Positions 6,221-40,845 of a stretch of DNA of 64,000 nt are shown here, in pieces. A program made the position numbers and the translations under genes. The first letter of the stretch is position 1. The number at the start of each line of letters is the position of its first letter. Source of the stretch: Nitrospira japonica (lineage in GTDB: Bacteria; Nitrospirota; Thermodesulfovibrionia; UBA6902); the NCBI GenBank assembly GCA_020723105.1, contig DYJL01000002.1, positions 124,001 to 188,000 of the forward strand. The letters run 5' to 3'. The notes under the pieces are model-generated. The model worked only from the letters and a program-made list of their open reading frames with translations. It was not told the DNA's origin and made no database searches.

Positions 6221-6553
6221 CTACTTTATCACCTCATACTTCTTCATCAACGTATCAAAGCTCATATTAGCCGAAACTGCATTATGCGGGATAAGGACAT
6301 ATCGCCACGGTTTGCCGCCGCTTGTGGAGGTAAATTCGGAAGCATGTTTACAGTATTGCAATGCGGCTTGAGCTTTTTCCTGAACGTCTGTTGTTTCAAT
6401 ATCGCCTTCTTTTTTAGTCTCTATCATATAAATGGCATATGGCGTCTCAGCGACAAAATCCGGGTGGTACTGCTTTGGGTTGTGGTCCCAGTAAATTTTA
6501 AATTGTCTGCATGGATAGGGTCCATGTCGCAGTAAAATGTCACAGTATGTCAC
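6221..6553 (-). pseudogene. Relic of a second type III Res subunit (C-terminal nuclease segment)
   Basis: An open frame of 110 codons. From residue 16 to the end it aligns without gaps to the last 95 residues of the intact Res protein encoded at 7721-10444, with about 80% identity by eye (shared PDFVAETPYAIYMIETKKEG and RYVLIPHNAV). The PD-(D/E)xK-type residues (PDF...ETK) are kept. The first 15 residues are unrelated to Res and come from the TGTCACAGTA repeat block, so the rest of the gene (helicase domain) is gone. It is best read as the 3' remnant of an older res gene, though a short product could still be made. It is separated from the intact res copy by fic. Confidence 0.85.
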
Positions 6554-7720: not shown

Positions 7721-10444
7721 CTATGATCTTTGTTCGTGCTTCCTTACTAATGTATCAAAACTCATATTAGCCAAAACCGCATTATGCGGGATAAGGACAT
7801 AACGCCAGGACTTACCGCCGCTTGCGGCGGTGAATTCAGAGGCATATCTACAGTATTGCAGCGCGGCTTGAGCTTTTTCCCGCACGTCAGTGGTTTCAAT
7901 GTCGCCTTCTTTTTTAGTCTCTATCATATAAATGGCATATGGCGTCTCAGCGACAAAATCAGGAGTATATTGTTTTGATTTACGGTCCCAGTAGATATTA
8001 AATTGTCTACTTGATGGTTTCAGCCATTTCAGGACTGCTTTATCATTCTCTAAAATAATCGTAAAGTCTTTCTCCGTCTTGGAGTCAAATTTATACAGAT
8101 TATGACATGCCTTTCTGAAGCCGCTGAATACCTTTCCGGGGATTGCGCTTGTCGGTGTAATAGTTACGGTAAAGTGGCGGATGTCGTCCTTCGTATATTT
8201 TGACAGATTATGTTCTTCAATTCGTGTAAACGGCCTGACAACAGGCTTCTCGAAGCTTGGCGCTTCACAGTAGAAATGCTCCATCATTTGTGAAAAGATA
8301 TAGCTGCCGATCTCTTTCTTATGCGATTGAACAACATTAATCGTCTGATCTTCGGTGAGATATGTCATAAATTTTTCGAGCGCCTGCCGTCCAAGCTTAA
8401 AAAGCAAGTCTGAATAAGCATCGTAGTCAATCTCGGAGAAATTAATCAACTCATTCACGATCATGTTCTCAACGCTTTCATATCTGACCTTTACCCCTGA
8501 GGCATCAATTATTTCAATCTTCCCAGCGCCAAGTCCTACGATAATAATTTGTTCTGCGCCCGGCTGATAATTCAGACTCCTTACATCAAGATCAAAGTCC
8601 AAGAATCCTGAAACAATATTGTCTGACTGCTGTATTGTGGCCCTGGGTATCTCAATGATATTCTTTTTGAATTCATCGATAAGGATTTCATAAGCCTCCT
8701 TTGCTTCTTTTACTATCTCTGCGGAAAACATAGCCTGTTGCAGGGAGCTTTCGATTTTCTGTTTGATTTTGTCGACAACAAGCTCTCTGATCTCCTCTTT
8801 CTTAAGATCGTTAATACTTGTTACTTTGACACCTAAATCAGGCAGCGCTGAAAACACAGCTTTGCGTACATCGAGACTAATCTGTGCCTTATGCTTTTCT
8901 TCCGGATCGGAGATAGAATTAATCTGTATCTGCCGGTCTTCGATTGACTTATCAATAGTAGATACCGCTGTGACGACCTCTTTTGGTTGACACAGCTCCT
9001 CTGCATCAATCGTGATAATGTTTTCCTTTCTGATGATCGAATCAGGTTTATTGGCTTCGTCAATGATTTCCTGAAATTTATCATGCGCCACAATCGTCAG
9101 TTTATCCGCCTTGTCATTCCCTGTACGCTTTCCATACGGCAGGCGCAGTCCCCTGCCGATTGTCTGCTCCCTGAGGGTGGTTGATGCAGCAGTCCGCAAA
9201 GGGATTATCGTATAGAGATTAGTAACGTCCCATCCCTCTTTGAGCATATTTACATGAATAACAATTTCAATCCTGTTGTCATGGCTTTCCAATGAAAGCA
9301 GTTGGGCGATATTTTCGTCCTTCTCCTCTCCGGTCTGATTGGAATGGATTTCCGTAACCTTATCGGCATATCGTCCTTCAAAGAATGCGTTTGAGACTAT
9401 TAACTCCTTCAGCTTGCGGGCGTGGTCCGTATCTTTTGCAACAACCAGAACAAATGGCTTCACAAGGTCCATTTTGTTGTCACGTGAAAATATGTCCAGA
9501 GCAACTTTTGTGTCTTCATGAATCCGGATGCCGTCTTCGAGCTTTATCCTGTCCAGATCGTCAAGACTATATTGAGCCGGGTCAAAATCCCTGCGCGTAG
9601 CTACGGCAGGTTCCTTTACAAAGCCGTCCTGAATCGCCCTGGACAGCGAATATTCATACACGACATTCTTGAATTTGATCGGGCCTCCGCTTCGTTCAAC
9701 CTTAGGCGTTGCGGTCAGCTCCAGTCCCAATACAGGATTCAATTCATTGATGACTTCCATGCCCCTGTCAGCACGGTAATGATGTGATTCATCCATGAGT
9801 AAGACCAGGTCGTCAAGATTGGAAAGGTAGTTGAAATATGAATCGCCCAAGTATTCCGACAGCCTCTTGATCCGGGGGAGCTTGCCTCCCCGCATTTCCG
9901 AGTTGATCTTGGATATGTTAAAGACGTTTATCCTGATCTCCTGCTCTTTATAAAGGTCCCCGACGGAATTATAATTATCTCCAGTTATTATCACGGGATT
10001 GTTATGGACGAATTCCCCGATGCCCTTAAATACATATTTCGGATGAGTGGTATTTGAAAAATCCTCAATGAGCTTGTTGTAAATAGTAAGGTTCGGGGCC
10101 AGGACAAAAAAGTTCCTGATGCCTTTTGACAAATACAGATAAGCTGCGAAAGCGCCCATCAAGCGGGTTTTCCCAACGCCGGTTGCCAGTGCAAAGCAGA
10201 TAGAAGGGAAGCTGCGTTCAAAGTCCGTGCACGTAGGGTATGCGTTATTGACGATTTCAAGCTGCTCTTTTAGATCATTCTTCTCTTGAGATGTTCCCGC
10301 CTCTTTAGTCCCCTCTTGAGAGGGGTCAGGGGGGTGTTTCTTTAAATCCAGTTTCTCTATTAACTCTGCCAGTATATTCAGGCTGTCAGTCTGCGGAGGA
10401 CGGAGGCTTAAACGGTTCTTAATCGAGACGGCTATTTTATCCAT
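7721..10444 (-). CDS. res: Type III restriction enzyme Res subunit (helicase-nuclease)
   Basis: A 907-residue SF2 translocase/helicase with a C-terminal nuclease, the restriction subunit paired with the adjacent Mod. Visible motifs: Walker A ATGVGKT (86-92), DESH at 218-221, LTATP near 243-247, TIGRGLRLPYG (motif VI, about 428-438), and near the end PDF...IETK (about 828-844), a PD-(D/E)xK-type site. It cuts unmodified DNA in complex with Mod in characterised type III systems. The start codon overlaps the mod stop (TAATG). Residues around 37-50 (HPPDPSQEGTKE) are encoded by a palindromic repeat inserted in frame at 10309-10337. A second, partial copy of its C-terminus lies at 6221-6553. Confidence 0.92.
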   Translation of the reverse strand: MDKIAVSIKNRLSLRPPQTDSLNILAELIEKLDLKKHPPDPSQEGTKEAGTSQEKNDLKEQLEIVNNAYPTCTDFERSFPSICFALATGVGKTRLMGAFAAYLYLSKGIRNFFVLAPNLTIYNKLIEDFSNTTHPKYVFKGIGEFVHNNPVIITGDNYNSVGDLYKEQEIRINVFNISKINSEMRGGKLPRIKRLSEYLGDSYFNYLSNLDDLVLLMDESHHYRADRGMEVINELNPVLGLELTATPKVERSGGPIKFKNVVYEYSLSRAIQDGFVKEPAVATRRDFDPAQYSLDDLDRIKLEDGIRIHEDTKVALDIFSRDNKMDLVKPFVLVVAKDTDHARKLKELIVSNAFFEGRYADKVTEIHSNQTGEEKDENIAQLLSLESHDNRIEIVIHVNMLKEGWDVTNLYTIIPLRTAASTTLREQTIGRGLRLPYGKRTGNDKADKLTIVAHDKFQEIIDEANKPDSIIRKENIITIDAEELCQPKEVVTAVSTIDKSIEDRQIQINSISDPEEKHKAQISLDVRKAVFSALPDLGVKVTSINDLKKEEIRELVVDKIKQKIESSLQQAMFSAEIVKEAKEAYEILIDEFKKNIIEIPRATIQQSDNIVSGFLDFDLDVRSLNYQPGAEQIIIVGLGAGKIEIIDASGVKVRYESVENMIVNELINFSEIDYDAYSDLLFKLGRQALEKFMTYLTEDQTINVVQSHKKEIGSYIFSQMMEHFYCEAPSFEKPVVRPFTRIEEHNLSKYTKDDIRHFTVTITPTSAIPGKVFSGFRKACHNLYKFDSKTEKDFTIILENDKAVLKWLKPSSRQFNIYWDRKSKQYTPDFVAETPYAIYMIETKKEGDIETTDVREKAQAALQYCRYASEFTAASGGKSWRYVLIPHNAVLANMSFDTLVRKHEQRS
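10309..10337. repeat. Palindromic repeat inserted in frame in res
   Basis: The segment contains the inverted pair CCCCTCTTGAGAGGGG followed by a G-rich tail (TCAGGGGGGTGT). This is the look of a short interspersed palindromic repeat normally found between genes. Here it is translated as part of the Res N-terminus (HPPDPSQEGTKE), in a poorly conserved linker before the helicase motifs, and keeps the frame. Confidence 0.6.
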
Positions 10445-12222
10445 TACTCTTCCTCAGTATCAAATAATGCCGGTTCTGCTTGTTGTGATTTCTTTTTAGA
10501 CTTCTTCTTTTCTTTTTCCAATGTCGCCGGCCCACGCGGAATAAATTCCGGTTCTTCAGGATTCACCGGCATATTCACAATATTCAGGCTGTAATCCTCT
10601 CTGCCGAACTCACATCTTCCTAAAAGCATGTTCGGTATCTTCTTTACAGTAATATTTGGATAACGGTCCTTACAGGCTTTTGAAAAAGACTTGCAGCATA
10701 TCAACAAGCTTTCGTCATACTGCATTTCCTCATGTATCTTGTCCAGAAACTCAACCGTAATAAATTTGGTTGTGGTAAAGATATAGTCCTTCTCAGTAGA
10801 CTTGCCCTGCTTCCAATAAACAGCCTCATCCGGGCTGTATTTAAAACCTTCATGCTTTGCCATAGCCGCAGCAAGCATATCGGCGTTGTACCGCTCATCT
10901 ATAATCCAGTTGCCGTACTTATCTCCCTTTAACAGGCTCGGCGCAAGGTAGTAATATTTGAATCCACCGCCGCCTTGCCAGTTTACAGCCTTTGAGATTC
11001 CGCCCTGATCCATGCCGTCAATAACTTTTTTCAATCGTGGCAGACAATGGGTGTTACAATGGTCACCAAGCTCAATGCCAATCCATCTTCTCTTCATCTT
11101 GTGAGCAACAGCAGCAGTTGTGCCTGAGCCAAGGAAAGAGTCGAGAACCAAGTCACCGGGGTTAGTAGCGAGATCAAAACAACGCTTAACCAATGTCTCC
11201 GGCTTCTTTCCTTTGGGAAACTCAACACCACCTTCATTGTGAAGATTATTTGATAATACATCGTCCCATATACTCGTTAGCGGCTCGCCTGCTACGTAAT
11301 CCCCATCAATCAGCTTTAACTTATCTGAGTAAAAAAGAATACGCTCTCCTCCAACAAAATACATATCGGAATAACCTTCACGCTTGAGAAGCATAACCTC
11401 CTTTTTATTTGTACGTGAAACATCAATAATGCGTCGAGCATCACTACTTACCGCATTATAATCAGGACGTGCAAGACGAACAATGCGTTTCGCATGTTCT
11501 GCAACAAACTCAGACAGTCTTTTCTCGTATTCGTCACCTAACACCTTCTTGATGCCACGTTCAGGGAGTCTAAGGCTATCTGCAAAAGCATTAGTTAAAG
11601 TTATAAAACGCCATCTCATAAAATTGTCGTTATAATTTTCAATATACTGCCCATAACGCTTATCACGTTCACCTCTTGCAGTAAATACTCGGTTCGGGGT
11701 CCAGAACGCCTTGTTTTTTGCAAAAATTACAATAAAATTTGATGTGCTAACAACGCCTGGATTAATAGCCTTGTGACCAGTGGCTGAACCTTGTTTAAAG
11801 GTTACTATCGATATCCTATTCGCTCGTCCGAATATTTCATCGAGCAAAACAATTAAATAGCCAAGTTCGTTATCGTCGATATGAACAAATAGTGTTCCGT
11901 CATTCGATAACAGCCGTCTAATGATACTCAAACGATCTCGAATCAATCGAAGCCAAATAGAATGCTCAAGGCCGTCATCATAGTGCTCAAATGCTTGCTG
12001 TGTGTTAAAAGGCAGATCGATATATACACACTTCACACTCCCTGCAAAATCCTGCTCAAGCGCCTTAAGCGCAAGAAGATTGTCGCCGTGGATAAGCATG
12101 TTGCCGCTGTTCTTGTCACCGTAAGACCTCTCCGGGTCTTCAATCAATATCCTCGGCTCCAGCCTCGGCTGCTCATCCTTGCCAATCCATGTGAGTTCGA
12201 GTTTTTGGGGTTTGTTGGTCAT
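10444..12222 (-). CDS. mod: Type III-like site-specific DNA methyltransferase (Mod)
   Basis: A 592-residue beta-class amino-methyltransferase, expected to transfer methyl from SAM to adenine (or cytosine N4) in the recognition site and to guide Res. The order is catalytic motif IV at residues 69-72, target-recognition region (about 140-330), then the SAM-binding motif FLGSGTT at 363-369 followed by WIGIELG. Motif IV reads DLPF instead of the usual DPPY/DPPF; the flanking CVYID and NTQQAFEHYDDGLEHS are typical. The C-terminus is Lys-rich. Its stop overlaps the res start (TAATG), so Mod and Res are coupled. There is no clear Shine-Dalgarno; a perfect palindrome lies just upstream of the ATG. 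Confidence 0.93.
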   Translation of the reverse strand: MTNKPQKLELTWIGKDEQPRLEPRILIEDPERSYGDKNSGNMLIHGDNLLALKALEQDFAGSVKCVYIDLPFNTQQAFEHYDDGLEHSIWLRLIRDRLSIIRRLLSNDGTLFVHIDDNELGYLIVLLDEIFGRANRISIVTFKQGSATGHKAINPGVVSTSNFIVIFAKNKAFWTPNRVFTARGERDKRYGQYIENYNDNFMRWRFITLTNAFADSLRLPERGIKKVLGDEYEKRLSEFVAEHAKRIVRLARPDYNAVSSDARRIIDVSRTNKKEVMLLKREGYSDMYFVGGERILFYSDKLKLIDGDYVAGEPLTSIWDDVLSNNLHNEGGVEFPKGKKPETLVKRCFDLATNPGDLVLDSFLGSGTTAAVAHKMKRRWIGIELGDHCNTHCLPRLKKVIDGMDQGGISKAVNWQGGGGFKYYYLAPSLLKGDKYGNWIIDERYNADMLAAAMAKHEGFKYSPDEAVYWKQGKSTEKDYIFTTTKFITVEFLDKIHEEMQYDESLLICCKSFSKACKDRYPNITVKKIPNMLLGRCEFGREDYSLNIVNMPVNPEEPEFIPRGPATLEKEKKKSKKKSQQAEPALFDTEEE

Positions 12223-13112: not shown

Positions 13113-13234
13113 TTCTTGTCCCCCCTCTTAAATAAAATTATTCCTGAAAAACATTCAATCAATATCATCGGCTCCAGCTTCGGCTGAGCATCCTTGCCTA
13201 TCCAGGTAAGTTCGAGTTTTTGAGGTTTGTTCAA
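13109..13234 (-). pseudogene. Relic of the 5' end of a second mod gene
   Basis: Directly after the OLD-nuclease stop, a 41-codon frame opens with TTG and reads NKPQKLELTWIGKDAQPKLE and then PMILIE. This is nearly identical to the first 28 residues of the intact Mod (NKPQKLELTWIGKDEQPRLE, PRILIE). After that the similarity stops and the frame runs through unrelated sequence to a TGA overlapping the dinD ATG. It is the 5' stump of an older mod gene and now may serve only as a coupling cistron between the OLD gene and dinD. Confidence 0.85.
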
Positions 13235-13235
13235 T

Positions 13236-15098
13236 TCAACATCCTTGCAATGCTGCGCCTATTACGCGAAGCCAAGTTCTGATCTCATTATCAGTATCAA
13301 TAGACGAAAGTAAATCCGGCGTCATTTTCAACACATAATCGGTACAAAGTCGCCGTTTAGCGCTCGACTCTTTCTTGGAAAGTTTTTCGACGTTTGCTGA
13401 TACATCTATCCACGATTGCTTACTTTCACTTGCTTCATGAACAGCTTGGGCAAAAAGAACAGGAACGTCTTCAAAAGCTTCGCCTGCCCCTGCATAATGA
13501 GCATAATCTTTTTTAATGACGTCAGGATGAATATAGTTCTCAAGTTCTTTTCTGTTAGTCGTCCAAACCGTACAGTTAGCACGCTTACCAAACTCTTCTG
13601 CTATAGCATGATATTTCGGTTTTTCGGGTGGTTTGTTATCCCTATCCATGAGATAGAATTCTGGGCGATTAAATTTTTCAAGCCTCGACACCCACAAATC
13701 AAGACTACTTCCACCTAACGGAACAAATACGAGGTGACCATCGTCCTCAGATTTCTTCAAGTTCGGCACATCTTCACCGGCATTATTTAATATCTCAGAA
13801 ATAGTAGAGAGAAATATTATATCGTTTCTGCCTTCAATACCCAAAAAAACCCTGATATTATGGTCCGGTAAAACACCCAGCGAGGTCATGATTTCATTTA
13901 GAGTCTCATCCGTATGTCCATCATGAATAACCGTCCGGTCATTTTCCTGCGTAAGATAACGTAATGAAGCCTGTCCAAACCTTCTTGCCAGCATAGGAGT
14001 ATGTGTTGTAAGAAGTACTTGACAACCATCCTGATTTGCCAAGTCTTCAAAAGCCTCAATGAGCATTTTTTGATTATTAGGGTGTTGACTTGTTTCAGGT
14101 TCCTCAATGGCATAGATAATGCCAGTGTCTTTCCCTTCTGCGTCTTTCTCTGCCCTTGCACGAAAGAAATTCAACAGGACTAAACGTCTTGTGCCACTTC
14201 CGCGCTTGTTAATAGGTATATCATGCTCACCGGTAAGACTGACAGAAAAAAGGCTGTCCCAGTTCTTATTTGAGACCCTTGGTTTCAATTGCTTTGCCAA
14301 CTCAGGGCTCATCTCTCGGATTTTTTCAACCGTTCTGTCTGCTATTGTCTGAACTTCTTGCTTTACTCTCTCTGCAATTGCGTTGAGTGTTGTTTCTTGA
14401 GCTTTAATGGCTTCCTTTATGGCCGACTTCATAGGATCTTGTGCTTCTTCATCTTGATCCGTGCTGGAACGGTCGGATTTAAATAAAGCAAAAACAGGTA
14501 GACTCTTTTTCAATTGCTCCCAAATCTTTTCTGCCGCCTCAGACTTGAGTTCAATATCGATTGCCTGACAGTGTAAATCGTCAGCATGAGACCAAATAGC
14601 GCACCTAAGCTCAGTATTGATTGTCTGGTTAACATTTGACAGATCAACTCCTAATTCTTTTGCCCGCTGCTTTAATTTAGTGTTTGTTAAAGTTAAAAGG
14701 TCGTTGTACTTATCAGCAGTTGGATGAATTGCTCTTGCATAGACATTTGCGGCTTTTACTTTGCCGGAACCAGAACAGTTGAATATCTTTACGATCTCCA
14801 ACAATCCATTTTGATCCAGCAAATATTCTGCTATTAAATTTGTTGGGTGTTGTTCATCAATTACAATATCCGCCGGAAGATTATCAAATACACATGCTAT
14901 TTTGATTGTTGATTCATCGCCGTGAACACATACATCATCTTGCTCAGGAACACGATTGAAAAATAAGTCACATGCATCAAAAAGGGATGATTTCCCTGAA
15001 TCGTTTTTACCAATAAAGACGGTTAGATCATTGATATCAATAACGACCTCATCTTTATAACATCGGAAATTTGTTATTTTCAGCTTTCGCAATCTCAT
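13236..15098 (-). CDS. OLD-family ATPase with TOPRIM nuclease domain
   Basis: A 620-residue protein with an N-terminal ABC/SMC-like ATPase: NFRCYKDEV, Walker A GKNDSGKSS (about 30-38), Walker B-type AIEEPETSQHP (about 328) and LLTTHTPMLAR. The C-terminal half has a TOPRIM-like core with IEGRNDIIFL (about 418) and YLMDRDN (about 480), the acidic residues expected for metal-dependent cleavage. OLD proteins are ATP-regulated endonucleases with roles in phage exclusion (P2 Old, Gabija GajA). No GajB-type UvrD helicase follows, so it is not a standard Gabija pair. It lies 23 bases after the DUF2130 gene and immediately before the mod relic, within the same co-directional set. Confidence 0.88.
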   Translation of the reverse strand: MRLRKLKITNFRCYKDEVVIDINDLTVFIGKNDSGKSSLFDACDLFFNRVPEQDDVCVHGDESTIKIACVFDNLPADIVIDEQHPTNLIAEYLLDQNGLLEIVKIFNCSGSGKVKAANVYARAIHPTADKYNDLLTLTNTKLKQRAKELGVDLSNVNQTINTELRCAIWSHADDLHCQAIDIELKSEAAEKIWEQLKKSLPVFALFKSDRSSTDQDEEAQDPMKSAIKEAIKAQETTLNAIAERVKQEVQTIADRTVEKIREMSPELAKQLKPRVSNKNWDSLFSVSLTGEHDIPINKRGSGTRRLVLLNFFRARAEKDAEGKDTGIIYAIEEPETSQHPNNQKMLIEAFEDLANQDGCQVLLTTHTPMLARRFGQASLRYLTQENDRTVIHDGHTDETLNEIMTSLGVLPDHNIRVFLGIEGRNDIIFLSTISEILNNAGEDVPNLKKSEDDGHLVFVPLGGSSLDLWVSRLEKFNRPEFYLMDRDNKPPEKPKYHAIAEEFGKRANCTVWTTNRKELENYIHPDVIKKDYAHYAGAGEAFEDVPVLFAQAVHEASESKQSWIDVSANVEKLSKKESSAKRRLCTDYVLKMTPDLLSSIDTDNEIRTWLRVIGAALQGC

Positions 15099-16432: not shown

Positions 16433-17839
16433 TCAGCCCTTCACTATCTCCCAATGCCCGCCTTTGTCCGGGCCGATACGTTTTAATAAGCCTCGCTTTT
16501 TTAATTTCTCTAAATTATATTCAACCGTTTTTTTTGTTATGTTACCTTGAGAAATCATTTCATTTTTGCTTATATATGGATTATTTTCAATCAAAGCATA
16601 TATGATTGCTTCATTAGCTGATACCCTTTCTACCCCCCTTTCTACCCCCCTTTCTACCCCCCTTTTCTGGGAACCTTTCTGGATAGTATCTTCTGTTTCT
16701 CCCGCTTTAAGAGAATACCGTGGATCGCGATAAAAAATAGCACTGAAGAATGAATCCATCTCAAAGACAGGTTCTTTCAGACCGGCTTCAATCATCAGCG
16801 TCCTCATGCGATTGATGCCTGTGCCCATGCGCTCAACTTTATCCATGCGATGAAACAAATCAGCAATGATCGGATTCCGTCTTACAGAAGACTTGCCGAA
16901 ATCCCGCTTTGCCATACCTTCAACCAATCCTCCGGGGTTTTCTATCTCCACCCTATCGTCGAAAACTCTGACATAAATACTTGTGCCCTTTATAGAATAA
17001 TCCCTGTGTACTATTGCATTAACAACAGCCTCCCTTAACGCGTTCAGTGGGATCTCATAAATATCAAACCGGTTAAATTCACGAATTTCACTTCTTACAT
17101 TCAGATGTTTCTTAAGGAAAGCAACTGCTTCATTGAACTGTATTAGAAGATCGTCTCTCACATCCTTCCGGTCATAAATATTAATTCTTTCTGATCCCTT
17201 AAAAGATGCAAAGATGCTTTCTGCATGAGGGACAAATTTATCAACCCTGGATGCAAACATTAACGCACCGGCATTATTGATTTTACCTTTCGCGTAAATA
17301 CTCAGACTTGCAAGAAAAGGAGCAAGATTTGCCTTGCTGATCTTATAGGTCAGATTCGCTTCTCGTAAAAAGGATTTAACCTTCTTGAGTGAAATATCCT
17401 TAAGGCCTAAATCCTTGCGAGCGATATCCTCAAAGGAAATATCCTCCGTCTCGCGAAAAATAGCCCGCACCTCCCTTTGCGTCATCTTCTGTGTTACTGC
17501 GTCAAGTCGTCTGAAATAACCGGATGACGAACTGTAGGGCTTTTCATCTCCCTCTGCGACCTCAATAACAACAATCTTTTCCACCTGACGGATATTCTTA
17601 AGGTGGATTGATGGATCACAGTTCCGTGCGATAGCATTTATTTCTGCCTTCATTTTGTTGGTCAGCTTCTCACCGATAACCTTTCCTGTGTCATCAACTC
17701 CGAGAAGCAACAGCCCGCCTTTTGAATTGGCAAAAGCGACGATATCACGGTCAATCCTGGGAGTGTACCTTTCCTTATACTCCACAGTAAGCCCTTCGCC
17801 CTCTTTGATAAGAATATTTATTTTGCCAGTTTCAGTCAT
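16433..17839 (-). CDS. AlbA_2/Schlafen-type putative DNA-binding ATPase regulator
   Basis: A 468-residue protein whose N-terminal domain (about 10-130; EGLTVEYKERYTPRIDRDI, FANSKGGLLLLGVDDTGKVI) is the AlbA_2 / Schlafen-like domain. A GHKL-like ATP-binding region follows (REAVVNAIVHRDYSIKGT near 265, VRVFDDRVEIENPGGL), then a C-terminal winged helix. Between them lies a linker of three or four ERGV units (about 389-404) encoded by a 12-base tandem repeat. Such proteins are usually called transcriptional regulators, and some act in phage defence. It starts 19 bases after the helicase stop, so it is probably the second gene of the island operon. Ligand and target are unknown. Confidence 0.85.
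   Translation of the reverse strand: MTETGKINILIKEGEGLTVEYKERYTPRIDRDIVAFANSKGGLLLLGVDDTGKVIGEKLTNKMKAEINAIARNCDPSIHLKNIRQVEKIVVIEVAEGDEKPYSSSSGYFRRLDAVTQKMTQREVRAIFRETEDISFEDIARKDLGLKDISLKKVKSFLREANLTYKISKANLAPFLASLSIYAKGKINNAGALMFASRVDKFVPHAESIFASFKGSERINIYDRKDVRDDLLIQFNEAVAFLKKHLNVRSEIREFNRFDIYEIPLNALREAVVNAIVHRDYSIKGTSIYVRVFDDRVEIENPGGLVEGMAKRDFGKSSVRRNPIIADLFHRMDKVERMGTGINRMRTLMIEAGLKEPVFEMDSFFSAIFYRDPRYSLKAGETEDTIQKGSQKRGVERGVERGVERVSANEAIIYALIENNPYISKNEMISQGNITKKTVEYNLEKLKKRGLLKRIGPDKGGHWEIVKG
16627..16672. repeat. 12-bp tandem repeat coding for ERGV units
   Basis: TTTCTACCCCCC is repeated head-to-tail about three times on the plus strand; on the coding strand it gives repeated ERGV. 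The unit is a multiple of three, so slippage would change linker length without breaking the reading frame. Confidence 0.85.
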
Positions 17840-17858: not shown

Positions 17859-20801
17859 TTAAATTACCTTCCATTTTATAGTAAACAACTCATAAGTTTC
17901 TATCTGCTGCATCATCCGCGACTCTATATCATTAATCAAGTTTTCTTTTTTTAGGTCAATCTCGTCCTGCGCCTGATAAAGATTTTGTCTCAACTCATTC
18001 CGCTTCTTTTCCATATCTTTTATCTGCCTCTGGGCCTTGACCTTATCCTCAAGATTCAATATCTTTTTTGTCTCGGTCTTTCCCGCCTTTATTTCACGGT
18101 CAAGTTCCTTCAACTCCAGTTCAATGCTGTTTTTTACATCCTCAGCCCACTTGTCCAGTTTTCCAATTTCGGTATCAAAAAAGCCACCATTGCGCTCAGT
18201 ATTTACTTGAAGAATCGCAGACTGCTGTTTATTTGCAATCTGTTCGATGTCATTCCGGACTTGATCCGGAATCCATGGTTCGACAGGCTCACCATGACGA
18301 GTCGTGTCACCCTGAGCTTGTCGAAGGGCTGGATTCCCGTTTTCACGGGAATGACTAACAACAGCGGGTAAAGAAAAAAGCCTTTGACATTGTTCTATAT
18401 CGAGTTCAGAACCATTATCAGACATCCCGCAAAATAAAATATGGTCCTCTGCTTCAAACGAATTTATAGTAAGAGTTTTCACAGACAGCCATCCTGATTT
18501 ACCGACAAACTGTTCTATCACACTAATTTTCTTACGGGTATTTGTGTAATCAAAAACCACGTCACTGGCATCGGATGGTATGGATTTGCACTTCTCTATA
18601 ATGAGCTGGGCAAGAGGGTGGCCAATTCTGTAAATATTAGCATCCTCAATATTCTTGCCTATCTTATAAGGCCCCGGATGTATTGTTTCATTCCCAAAGG
18701 GATTTGTCCTCAATATAAAAGAATATCCATCTTCCGCAAAGTCGGCATATGGCTCAAGGTAATATTTAGTAACCTGCCACAGCCAGTTTTCATATTTTGA
18801 AAGATAATCCCTGCTTTTCTGCAGGTTGATTCTCAATTTCTCATGAACCTCTTCATCAAAGTTCTCAAGAAGTCTCTGCCGGGTCAGATTTATCGTTTCA
18901 TCAATCTGCGGCTCCATCTCTTTCTGCAGAGCGTCAAAAGCGGATTGTATTTCTTCTTCCGATCTGCATTGCTGGTAAATCTGCGCGATGCGTTTTTCAA
19001 AGTCCACTCCTGATTCAATACTGCCGAGCACTTCATCACTTGCGCCGAATACCCCTTCAAAAAGCTTAAATTTCTCTGACAAAAGCTGATAGACTCTCAG
19101 GTCAGCGGCATTTTTTTTATTGAGGAAATTGACCACAACAACATCATGCTTTTGTCCATAACGGTGGCATCTGCCGATCCGCTGCTCAATTCTCTGCGGA
19201 TTCCACGGTAAATCATAATTAACTACTAAAGAACAGAACTGCAGATTAATTCCTTCTGCGCCTGCCTCGGTTGCGATCATGATAACTGCTTCATCTCTGA
19301 AGTATTCAACCAGTGCAGCACGCATGTCTGCGCTCTTTGATCCGCTGATCCTGTCAGTCCCCTGATGTTTCTCAATCCACCTTTTATAAATCTCCTGTGA
19401 TTTAGGGTCGGTATTTGAGCCGTTGAATAAGACAATCTTCCCGCTGTACTCAGTACCATCTAAAATATTCTCAAGATACTTCTGTGTTCTTGTTGATTCA
19501 GTGAAGATAACCGCCTTTTTGTTCCCGCCCCGTTTTCCCGTTTCTGCAAATCCTGCTTTCAGCGCAGTCATTAAGACTTCACCTTTAGAGTTCCTCTGGA
19601 TTGACTTTGCCAGGACATGAAATTCTTTCAAGGTATTGCTTTCTTCTTTGATGGATTTGATTTGTTCAGGAGTGAAGGTTTTTCTTTCTTCTGTCTCCTC
19701 GTCATCTTCTATCCACTCGTCCTTCATTTCGTCAAGAATTTCAAAATCCTCAGAAATAGCTTCTTCAAACACCGGCCCTGTTTCCTGACTCTCAACAATC
19801 AAATCCAATTTTTTTGACAAGGCTTCTAAAGTGCCCGAGATTGCATAAGTGGACGATGCGAGCAGTTTACGTAAAATCAGCGTCATTAGTTGCCTTTGGC
19901 TTGCAGGCAAGGCATAAAGGTTTGTCCGTTGCAAATATTCCGACACCAGATCATAAAGCTTCTGCTCATTCTCGGTCGGATAAAATTCCTGTGTAATGGG
20001 AATGCGGTTAGTGTATTTCACATACTCCAAAACCTGGCGCCTCAATGTCCTTTTGCAAATCGGTTTTAACCGTTCTTTTAAATCGTCAAAATTATCATTG
20101 TTGGTCAAACGGGCAAACCGGCTTTTAAAGCTCATCAGGTCCCCAAATGTATAATCGTCAATGATGCTTACCAGCCCATAAAGCTCCATGAGGGTATTTT
20201 GAAGTGGTGTTGCTGTCAAAAGAAGTTTTGGCGCATTAGCTACAGCAGCCTTTATTGCGTTTGCGATCTTATTGGTACTCTTGTAGACATTCCGTAAATG
20301 ATGTGCTTCATCAATTACTATCAGATCCCATTCAACTTGTTTGATATAGACATCCTTTGTCCTTGCAAAGTGATAAGAGCATATTACAATTTCGTTTTGT
20401 TTAAACGGGTTCAGATTACCGTTTTTGATTTCAAGATTAAAAGACTTTGTTTCGAGGATAACAGAGGACAGAAAAAACTTATCCATCAATTCCTGATTCC
20501 ACTGTTTACGAAGACTTGAGGGGACGATAATAAGAATCTTTCTCTTGCGTTCAGCCCATTTCTGAGAAATAACAATGGCTGCTTCAATGGTTTTCCCAAG
20601 TCCGACCTCATCCGCCAAAATAGCGCCTTTTGAAAGCGGAGAACGGAAAGCAAAAAGGGCAGCTTCTACCTGGTGGGGATTTAAATCTACCTGTGCATCG
20701 GATAATGAGGCTGCAAACTTTTGTAGACTGTCAGATGAATATCGGCGGGTAAGTTCATAAGCAAAATATTTGGCATGGTAATGAGAAATATTCATAGTCA
20801 A
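17859..20801 (-). CDS. SNF2/RapA-type DEAD/DEAH helicase
   Basis: A 980-residue SF2 helicase, first gene of the minus-strand island. Motifs: LADEVGLGKT (Walker A, about 62-71), VIDEAHHLRN (DEAH at 164-167), LLTATPLQNT, and in the second RecA lobe EGINLQFCSLVVNYDLPWNP and QRIGRCHRYGQ (about 537-548). These are hallmarks of SNF2/RapA-like translocases. The C-terminal third is coiled-coil rich (about 870-960), with charged segments such as KAQRQIKDMEKKRNELRQNL. Residues about 816-851 are encoded by a palindromic intergenic-type repeat inserted in frame. Related helicases sit beside methyltransferases in several defence loci; here it precedes AlbA_2, DUF2130 and OLD genes. DNA-translocating activity is expected, biological role inferred only. 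Confidence 0.88.
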   Translation of the reverse strand: MTMNISHYHAKYFAYELTRRYSSDSLQKFAASLSDAQVDLNPHQVEAALFAFRSPLSKGAILADEVGLGKTIEAAIVISQKWAERKRKILIIVPSSLRKQWNQELMDKFFLSSVILETKSFNLEIKNGNLNPFKQNEIVICSYHFARTKDVYIKQVEWDLIVIDEAHHLRNVYKSTNKIANAIKAAVANAPKLLLTATPLQNTLMELYGLVSIIDDYTFGDLMSFKSRFARLTNNDNFDDLKERLKPICKRTLRRQVLEYVKYTNRIPITQEFYPTENEQKLYDLVSEYLQRTNLYALPASQRQLMTLILRKLLASSTYAISGTLEALSKKLDLIVESQETGPVFEEAISEDFEILDEMKDEWIEDDEETEERKTFTPEQIKSIKEESNTLKEFHVLAKSIQRNSKGEVLMTALKAGFAETGKRGGNKKAVIFTESTRTQKYLENILDGTEYSGKIVLFNGSNTDPKSQEIYKRWIEKHQGTDRISGSKSADMRAALVEYFRDEAVIMIATEAGAEGINLQFCSLVVNYDLPWNPQRIEQRIGRCHRYGQKHDVVVVNFLNKKNAADLRVYQLLSEKFKLFEGVFGASDEVLGSIESGVDFEKRIAQIYQQCRSEEEIQSAFDALQKEMEPQIDETINLTRQRLLENFDEEVHEKLRINLQKSRDYLSKYENWLWQVTKYYLEPYADFAEDGYSFILRTNPFGNETIHPGPYKIGKNIEDANIYRIGHPLAQLIIEKCKSIPSDASDVVFDYTNTRKKISVIEQFVGKSGWLSVKTLTINSFEAEDHILFCGMSDNGSELDIEQCQRLFSLPAVVSHSRENGNPALRQAQGDTTRHGEPVEPWIPDQVRNDIEQIANKQQSAILQVNTERNGGFFDTEIGKLDKWAEDVKNSIELELKELDREIKAGKTETKKILNLEDKVKAQRQIKDMEKKRNELRQNLYQAQDEIDLKKENLINDIESRMMQQIETYELFTIKWKVI
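18250..18355. repeat. Palindromic GTCATTCC...GGAATGAC element inside the helicase gene
   Basis: A 106-bp segment starting GTCATTCCGGACTTGATCC and ending CCGTTTTCACGGGAATGAC, with an inner inverted pair around the GACAGGCTCA / CCTGAGCTTGTC region. It has the form of the interspersed palindromic repeats usually found between genes. It is read through in frame, giving a low-complexity insert with no stop (SHSRENGNPALRQAQGD and following). Related pieces lie at 28347-28371 and 39201-39258, both between genes. Confidence 0.85.
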
Positions 20802-20809
20802 GGACTTAA

Positions 20810-20853
20810 AATATTAAAACTCCCAACGGCAAGCCGTTGGGAGTTTTAATATT
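20810..20853 (-). terminator. Perfect 21-bp hairpin between the PFK gene and the island
   Basis: AATATTAAAACTCCCAACGGC and its exact reverse complement flank a 2-base loop. The stem is GC-rich at its tip, and on the minus strand it is followed by GTTTTAATATTTT. This fits a rho-independent terminator ending the phosphofructokinase transcript just before the helicase start at 20801, and suggests the island has its own promoter. Because it is symmetric it could also stop transcription from the other side. Confidence 0.75.
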
Positions 20854-20879
20854 TACAATTATTCATTATTTTTTATCTG

Positions 20880-23874: not shown

Positions 23875-23958
23875 TTCGGGAAATTATAACACAAGTAGTT
23901 TGCACTTCACTTGGTTAATAAATATTTATCTGGAGCAAGCCATGGTTCAAAAAATAGT

Positions 23959-24013
23959 TTTCAGTTATTAGTTTTTAGTCTAACAACTAACAACCAACAA
24001 CTAAAAACTGAAA
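23959..24013. repeat. AT-rich intergenic hairpin of AGTTNNT-type units
   Basis: The left arm TTTCAGTTATTAGTTTTTAG contains one 7-base unit more than the right arm ACTAAAAACTGAAA, so arm length differs by exactly one unit. Loop sequence repeats CAACTAACAAC. It sits between the AmpG-like gene and hisC, both on the minus strand. Confidence 0.7.
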
Positions 24014-28346: not shown

Positions 28347-28371
28347 GTCATTCCCGCTTGTCCGGAATGAC
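28347..28371. repeat. Short GTCATTCC...GGAATGAC palindromic repeat
   Basis: GTCATTCCCG-CTTGT-CCGGAATGAC, a 25-bp inverted repeat in the dnaE-accA gap. Its ends match those of the 106-bp element inside the helicase gene and the element before lysS, so it is a minimal member of the same family. Confidence 0.75.
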
Positions 28372-39185: not shown

Positions 39186-39200
39186 ATTTATATAATTTCT

Positions 39201-39258
39201 GGATTCCCGTTTTCACGGGAATGACCACTGCCTGTCATTCCTGTGAAGGCAGGAATCC
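39201..39258. repeat. Palindromic GGATTCC/GGAATCC repeat before lysS
   Basis: GGATTCCCGTTTTCACGGG and AATGAC, then GTCATTCCTGTGAAGGCAGG and AATCC. The outer GGATTCC/GGAATCC and inner inverted pairs make two stacked hairpins. The first half is identical to the end of the element within the helicase gene (18330-18355). It ends 32 bases before the lysS start. Confidence 0.85.
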
Positions 39259-39290
39259 AATTTTATTTTGAATGTTGTAATAGTCAACCA

Positions 39291-40798: not shown

Positions 40799-40845
40799 AG
40801 TTTTTAGTTGTCAGTTGTTAGACTAAAAACTAAAAACTAACAACT
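40799..40845. repeat. AT-rich hairpin of AGTTNNT units between lysS and lolC
   Basis: AGTTTTTAGTTGTCAGTTGT pairs imperfectly with ACTAAAAACTAACAACT around a GACTA loop. Units AGTTTTT, AGTTGTC, AGTTGTT are each 7 bases, mirrored as AAAAACT, AACAACT. Position fits a lysS terminator but the stem is AT-rich. Confidence 0.75.

Follow-up and report, generated by a model that had tools for sequence, protein, structure and literature searches.

A CGTC-REP-like composite palindrome in frame within a helicase gene of Nitrospirota

Background

Palindromic repeats with a CGTC tag (CGTC REPs) comprise the families CGTC-1 to -4 and include the Rickettsia palindromic elements (RPEs) RPE-4 and RPE-6 (Di Nocera et al. 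2013, PMC3733652). They are listed from five phyla, Nitrospirota not among them, and no dedicated transposase has been found for them (PMC3733652). Intragenic REPs are known in other bacteria, including two Xanthomonas recB genes that carry them at about one site (PMC3733652). A 2024 review (PMC10969869) regards in-frame fusion as most extreme in Rickettsia and calls its counterpart in other prokaryotes no more than conceivable; in-frame palindromic insertions have so far been treated mainly as a Rickettsia speciality. Here such an insertion is described from Nitrospirota. The window is the whole stretch of DNA that was analysed, 64,000 nucleotides of one contig.

Structure and classification of the element

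An earlier note on this DNA had proposed a palindromic repeat of 106 bp inserted in frame within a helicase gene. The location and the open frame agree with the present analysis, while the length is 107 bp, one base above that given before. The element is read as ...S-HSRENGNPALRQAQGDTTRHGEPVEPWIPDQVRND... with zero stops, and four of its six reading frames are stop-free. Its four units form hairpin pairs that face each other head to head, A> <B and B'> <A'. The outer units A and A' are 27 nt long and the inner units B and B' 23 nt, with B and A' reversed and a centre of 7 nt between the inner two. The RNA fold is predicted at about -51 kcal/mol, a raw value with no shuffled baseline.

Table 1. 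Positions in the window of the helicase gene, the composite element with its units, and two intergenic A-type repeats
Feature	Position	Strand	Source
SNF2-family helicase ORF, DrmD-like, 980 aa, host of the element	17859..20801	-	ORF list, Pfam, PADLOC
Composite palindromic element, 107 bp, encoding helicase residues 816-851	18249..18355	.	
Outer hairpin A, GTCATTCCGGACTTGATCCGGAATCCA; tag GTCA, 8-bp stem, 5-nt loop, CCA tail; same in L064	18249..18275	+	
Inner unit B, GTCATGGTGAGCCTGTCGAACCA on the minus strand	18276..18298	-	
Centre of 7 nt separating inner units B and B'	18299..18305	.	
Inner unit B', GTCACCCTGAGCTTGTCGAAGGG	18306..18328	+	
Outer hairpin A', GTCATTCCCGTGAAAACGGGAATCCAG on the minus strand; 8-bp stem, 4-nt loop; same in L064	18329..18355	-	
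Single intergenic A-type palindrome, 25 bp, same arm, GTCATTCCCGCTTGTCCGGAATGAC	28347..28371	.	
Intergenic tail-to-tail pair of A hairpins, without the inner B pair	39199..39259	.	

The A arms match CGTC REPs (PMC3733652) in the GTC tag, the ATTCC..GGAAT stem of 8 bp, the loop of 4-5 nt and the CCA tail. Both A, ATTCCGGA-CTTGA-TCCGGAAT-CCA, and A', ATTCCCGT-GAAA-ACGGGAAT-CCA, agree with the class pattern of a stem of 8-9 bp from A-T pairs, a 4-5 nt loop and a CCA tail. Of the tags CGTC, TGTC and CCTC, TGTC is found at A, CGTC at B and TGTC at B'; A' has AGTC, and three of the four units fit. The stems of B and B' (TGGT/ACCA and CCCT/AGGG) are not of the 8-9 bp kind with an A-T start, and the B units are treated here as partners of the A arms. 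The element further shares with CGTC REPs the head-to-head pairs, the multicopy and mostly intergenic dispersal, the presence of some copies inside ORFs and the lack of a known dedicated transposase. It differs from them in its phylum, in being a composite of four units, in the other kind of B stem and in an inner pair that is nested relative to a shorter version found in L064 (see below).

As with the RPEs, a palindromic repeat here enters functionally unrelated genes and leaves their frames intact. The likeness to gene-inserting RPEs drawn in the earlier note is borne out by helicase homologues without the element and by two more in-frame copies, in HisH and MnmE. The sequence of the arms supports a family link that would be closer than analogy, as RPE-4 and RPE-6 are classed as CGTC REPs and the A arms fit that class. 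The translated frames of the element gave no RPE match in NCBIfam, a library in which the presence of RPE models is unconfirmed. Unlike the RPEs, which belong to an obligate intracellular bacterium, the present repeats are found in a 3-Mb Nitrospirota genome and several unrelated families share the same loops. Neisseria dRS3 (CGTC-1) has the same type of arm but forms large clusters and mosaic intergenic regions (PMC3733652), whereas the repeats described here are mostly scattered singles or pairs, some of them in genes.

GTAG-REPs with their RAYT transposases, and MITEs such as QMITE and ERIC, are likewise short palindromes without a transposase of their own and with occasional in-frame fusions (PMC10969869, PMC5896051). 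The present tag is, however, not GTAG, and no A hairpin was found within 1.5 kb of the four Y1_Tnp matches, or up to the contig end. Repeats adjoining Y1 transposases were discarded as a candidate; one B-like match is separated by over 1 kb from the truncated copy that L108 carries. Nor is the helicase element flanked by a direct repeat of the kind that a target-site duplication, as in MITEs, would leave; native residues are missing instead.

Copies in the genome and among relatives

Genome-wide copy numbers were obtained by pattern searches. The repeat is far beyond chance, since in this genome of 3.13 Mb the A hairpin pattern GTCATTCCN{4,16}GGAATCC gave 29 exact matches, with none for the reversed control, and the 107-bp query matched 16 genomic places at E<=0.01. 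Our own count of genomic and intragenic copies, a check proposed in the earlier note, places the 29 hairpins at about 25 sites; three are clearly within genes (the helicase, HisH and MnmE), and most copies are intergenic. One copy close to the beginning of a 523-aa ORF (L093/L015) was left uncounted, because in our judgement the cobyrinate-synthase-like gene probably starts downstream of it.

The inner B/B' pair recurs at three further places (L002, L003 and L004), where no ORF of at least 120 aa spans the composite. Exact matches to the inner-unit pattern are confined to the B/B' pairs of three composites; the fourth, at L002, is more diverged. Repeats at 28347 and 39201 had been said to share the ends and inner symmetry of the element; the likeness is partial, the first having the same arm and the second a pair of A hairpins, but neither has the B/B' pair. 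Among the 61 relatives searched, 53 contain the A hairpin, with up to 380 per genome.

In-frame repeats in HisH, MnmE and sister species

In HisH (L072/L129) an in-frame CGTC-REP pair is found between VKKFEF and LKVPHMGWNEI, at a point where the alignment with HisH structures is split in two. In MnmE (L075/L117) such a pair lies between the NKTD and SAK motifs, and gaps are found there in the best PDB homologue. The frame in which the repeat is read differs among the helicase, HisH and MnmE genes of this genome, so what is kept is not one particular encoded peptide.

Other repeats occupy the same loops in sister species, several of them as imperfect copies and the heptads being recognised by eye. 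The HisH loop carries a GTAGGGGC-type repeat in G008 and G001, a CCCCCTT-type repeat in G005 and heptads in G002, G009 and G006. The MnmE loop carries the GTAGGGGC type in G004, G005, G006 and G008, four cases that may represent one ancestral event, and the CCCCCTT type in G007; no repeat was found in that loop in G002. Both palindrome families, GTAGGGGC..GCCCCTAC and CCCCCTT..AAGGGGG, are dispersed across the genus (controls 0 to 2). Heptad-type repeats in the style of AGTTTTTAGTTGTTAG, resembling the HisH-loop heptads of G002 and G009, also occur in the window at 23956-24009 and 40799-40845.

A sample of 376 kb from G008, non-random in that some contigs were picked for carrying HisH or MnmE, contained 63 repeat clusters. 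By our own reading, seven genes in it have at least one in-frame repeat: CbiD, CbiE/T-type, CbiG/H-type, a 432-aa protein, HisH, QueA and RsmE. Pfam backs the identities of CbiD, CbiE/T-type, QueA and RsmE, and the CbiG/H-type gene was named by eye. The alignment of QueA with its PDB homologues falls into three segments, interrupted at both inserts. The tally leaves out matches in DnaJ, a response regulator and a 192-aa ORF, which we took to be chance or spurious. In one stretch of G008 (L150, G008:C41:40001-60000) four adjacent genes, several of cobalamin type, each contain an in-frame GTAGGGGCAATTCATGAATTGCCCCTAC, giving the peptide AIHELPL.

The helicase gene and its linker

The host protein has the domains SNF2-rel_dom (E=8.7e-36) and Helicase_C (E=6e-20) in Pfam and a DrmD match in PADLOC (E=1.1e-213). 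Outside the linker dN/dS is 0.047-0.061, at a dS of 1.1-2.0 that is near saturation; a ratio of about 0.05 indicates that the gene apart from its linker is under purifying selection. The AlphaFold2 model is weak overall (mean pLDDT 62, pTM 0.36). Residues 816-840 form one of its ten stretches below 50, and the sole one beyond residue 661, flanked by a strand at 811-814 and a long helix at 844-911. This low confidence fits a disordered linker but is no proof of one. DISARM DrmD is the best PADLOC match of the protein, and the upstream neighbours, named by eye, are a phosphofructokinase-like gene and HisB/HisC look-alikes. A 37-nt inverted repeat (window 20794-20869) lies at the start of the gene.

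The linker was measured between RLFSL and QIANKQ in an alignment with 25 other helicase sequences. It is 18-21 residues long in 24 of these 25, 27 in L064 (Nitrospirae nzgw271) and 42 in the window helicase, a net gain of 21-22 residues over near relatives. With an insert of about 35 residues, this length implies that about 14 native residues have been replaced, which excludes a clean 35-residue insertion. The earlier expectation of a gap in homologues exactly at residues 816-851 thus held for the absence of the element, but the homologues are not 35 residues shorter.

The L064 helicase has a 62-bp version, GTCATTCCCGTGAAAACGGGAATCCAG-aagaata-CTGGATTCCGGATCAAGTCCGGAATGAC, at the same nucleotide position and with the same junctions. 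Both 27-nt arms are identical letter for letter to those of the window, while the gene flanks are about 70-77% identical, and the L064 version lacks the inner pair. At the same site the closer relatives L047-L050 have a different palindrome, CCTTGATAAGG; it is CCCTCCTTGATAAGGAGGGG in L047, L048 and L050, with one change in L049. The CCCTCCTT..AAGGAGGG palindrome occurs five times in G006 and twice in G042, and its status as a repeat family is weaker because there are no copies in five other genomes.

Origin of the insert

The preferred reading, given a probability of about 0.85, is that a composite CGTC-type REP was inserted into the helicase linker, partly replacing it, and was tolerated there, as one case of a genus-wide pattern of repeats in loops. 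That the segment is ordinary native protein sequence, resembling a repeat by chance or composition, has practically no probability left. The linker is variable in every homologue, as such an account would have it, yet against it stand hairpins paired over 107 bp whose arms recur exactly in the genome, controls of 0, and an L064 version with identical arms and no inner pair; given the copy counts and the homologue alignment it is already refuted. Scarcely more credible is a repeat-driven misjoin in a draft, probably metagenome-assembled, genome. Although the genome is an assembly of 94 contigs and the named relatives are mostly metagenome assemblies, the element is short, the helicase coding sequence is unbroken on both sides of it, the same junctions appear in the separate assembly of L064, and the copies in HisH and MnmE likewise keep the frame. 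Selection for a new helicase function or for regulation through mRNA structure is improbable: strong RNA hairpins are predicted and the arms are the same in L064, but most relatives lack the repeat, the linker varies freely, and the filling of the same loops in other proteins by unrelated repeats better suits tolerance.

A further alternative deals with the insert's history and could hold alongside the preferred reading of its identity. The window and L064 helicases could descend from an ancestor that had received a single insertion of the A-arm pair, since kept or homogenised, the palindrome of L047, L049 and L050 having replaced it later. The identical arms and the junctions identical at the nucleotide level argue for this, but the gene tree rejects the window and L064 as one clade (p-AU 4.1e-5) and groups the window with L047 and L049 (support 99/99), and synonymous divergence between window and L064 is about 2 despite the identical arms. 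A single insertion is rather unlikely. Local recombination between the window and L064 was discarded, as no tract of raised identity was found near the linker along the gene. For the helicase site, the tree favours more than one event and the identical junctions favour one.

Under the preferred reading of a tolerated REP insertion, the composite would have entered a variable linker joining the beta region to the C-terminal coiled coil, replacing part of it. Its persistence in the helicase would be due to a length and sequence that leave the frame open and to a linker that tolerates extra disordered residues; the insert is presumably translated as part of the helicase protein. Across the genus CGTC REPs, GTAGGGGC..GCCCCTAC and CCCCCTT..AAGGGGG palindromes and heptad tandem repeats would have entered the same exposed loops of conserved proteins in different species. 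The repeats are most likely copied or moved in trans, whether by an enzyme acting in trans or as copies made during repair or replication, and would be retained only in loops that tolerate the insert and in frames that it leaves open; we infer that tolerance rather than benefit underlies retention. It is conceivable, though doubtful, that the loops are recurrent landing slots, with unrelated families replacing one another and the CGTC REP reaching the same helicase nucleotide twice; this would point to a directed or homology-guided mechanism of replacement.

In-frame insertion of repeats is a known kind of event, and its occurrence in this phylum and the recurrence of several families at the same loops appear to be new. 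The Nitrospirota cases span HisH, MnmE, cobalamin enzymes, QueA and RsmE, and the sister species form a natural series in which the conversion of repeat to protein and the acceptance of repeats by loops become measurable.

Other features of the window

A 620-aa protein encoded at 13236-15098 on the minus strand matches AriA over residues 1-370 (E=2.9e-66); its C-terminal half is TOPRIM-like by eye, and it is possibly a fused PARIS protein. A 12-bp tandem repeat at about 16630-16670, in a predicted ATP-binding protein, encodes RGVE three times. The window also contains a direct repeat of 280 bp (84%) at 6234-6513 and 7734-8013, and one of 78 bp (90%) at 12139-12216 and 13154-13231 that has relatives in L049, L047 and L064.
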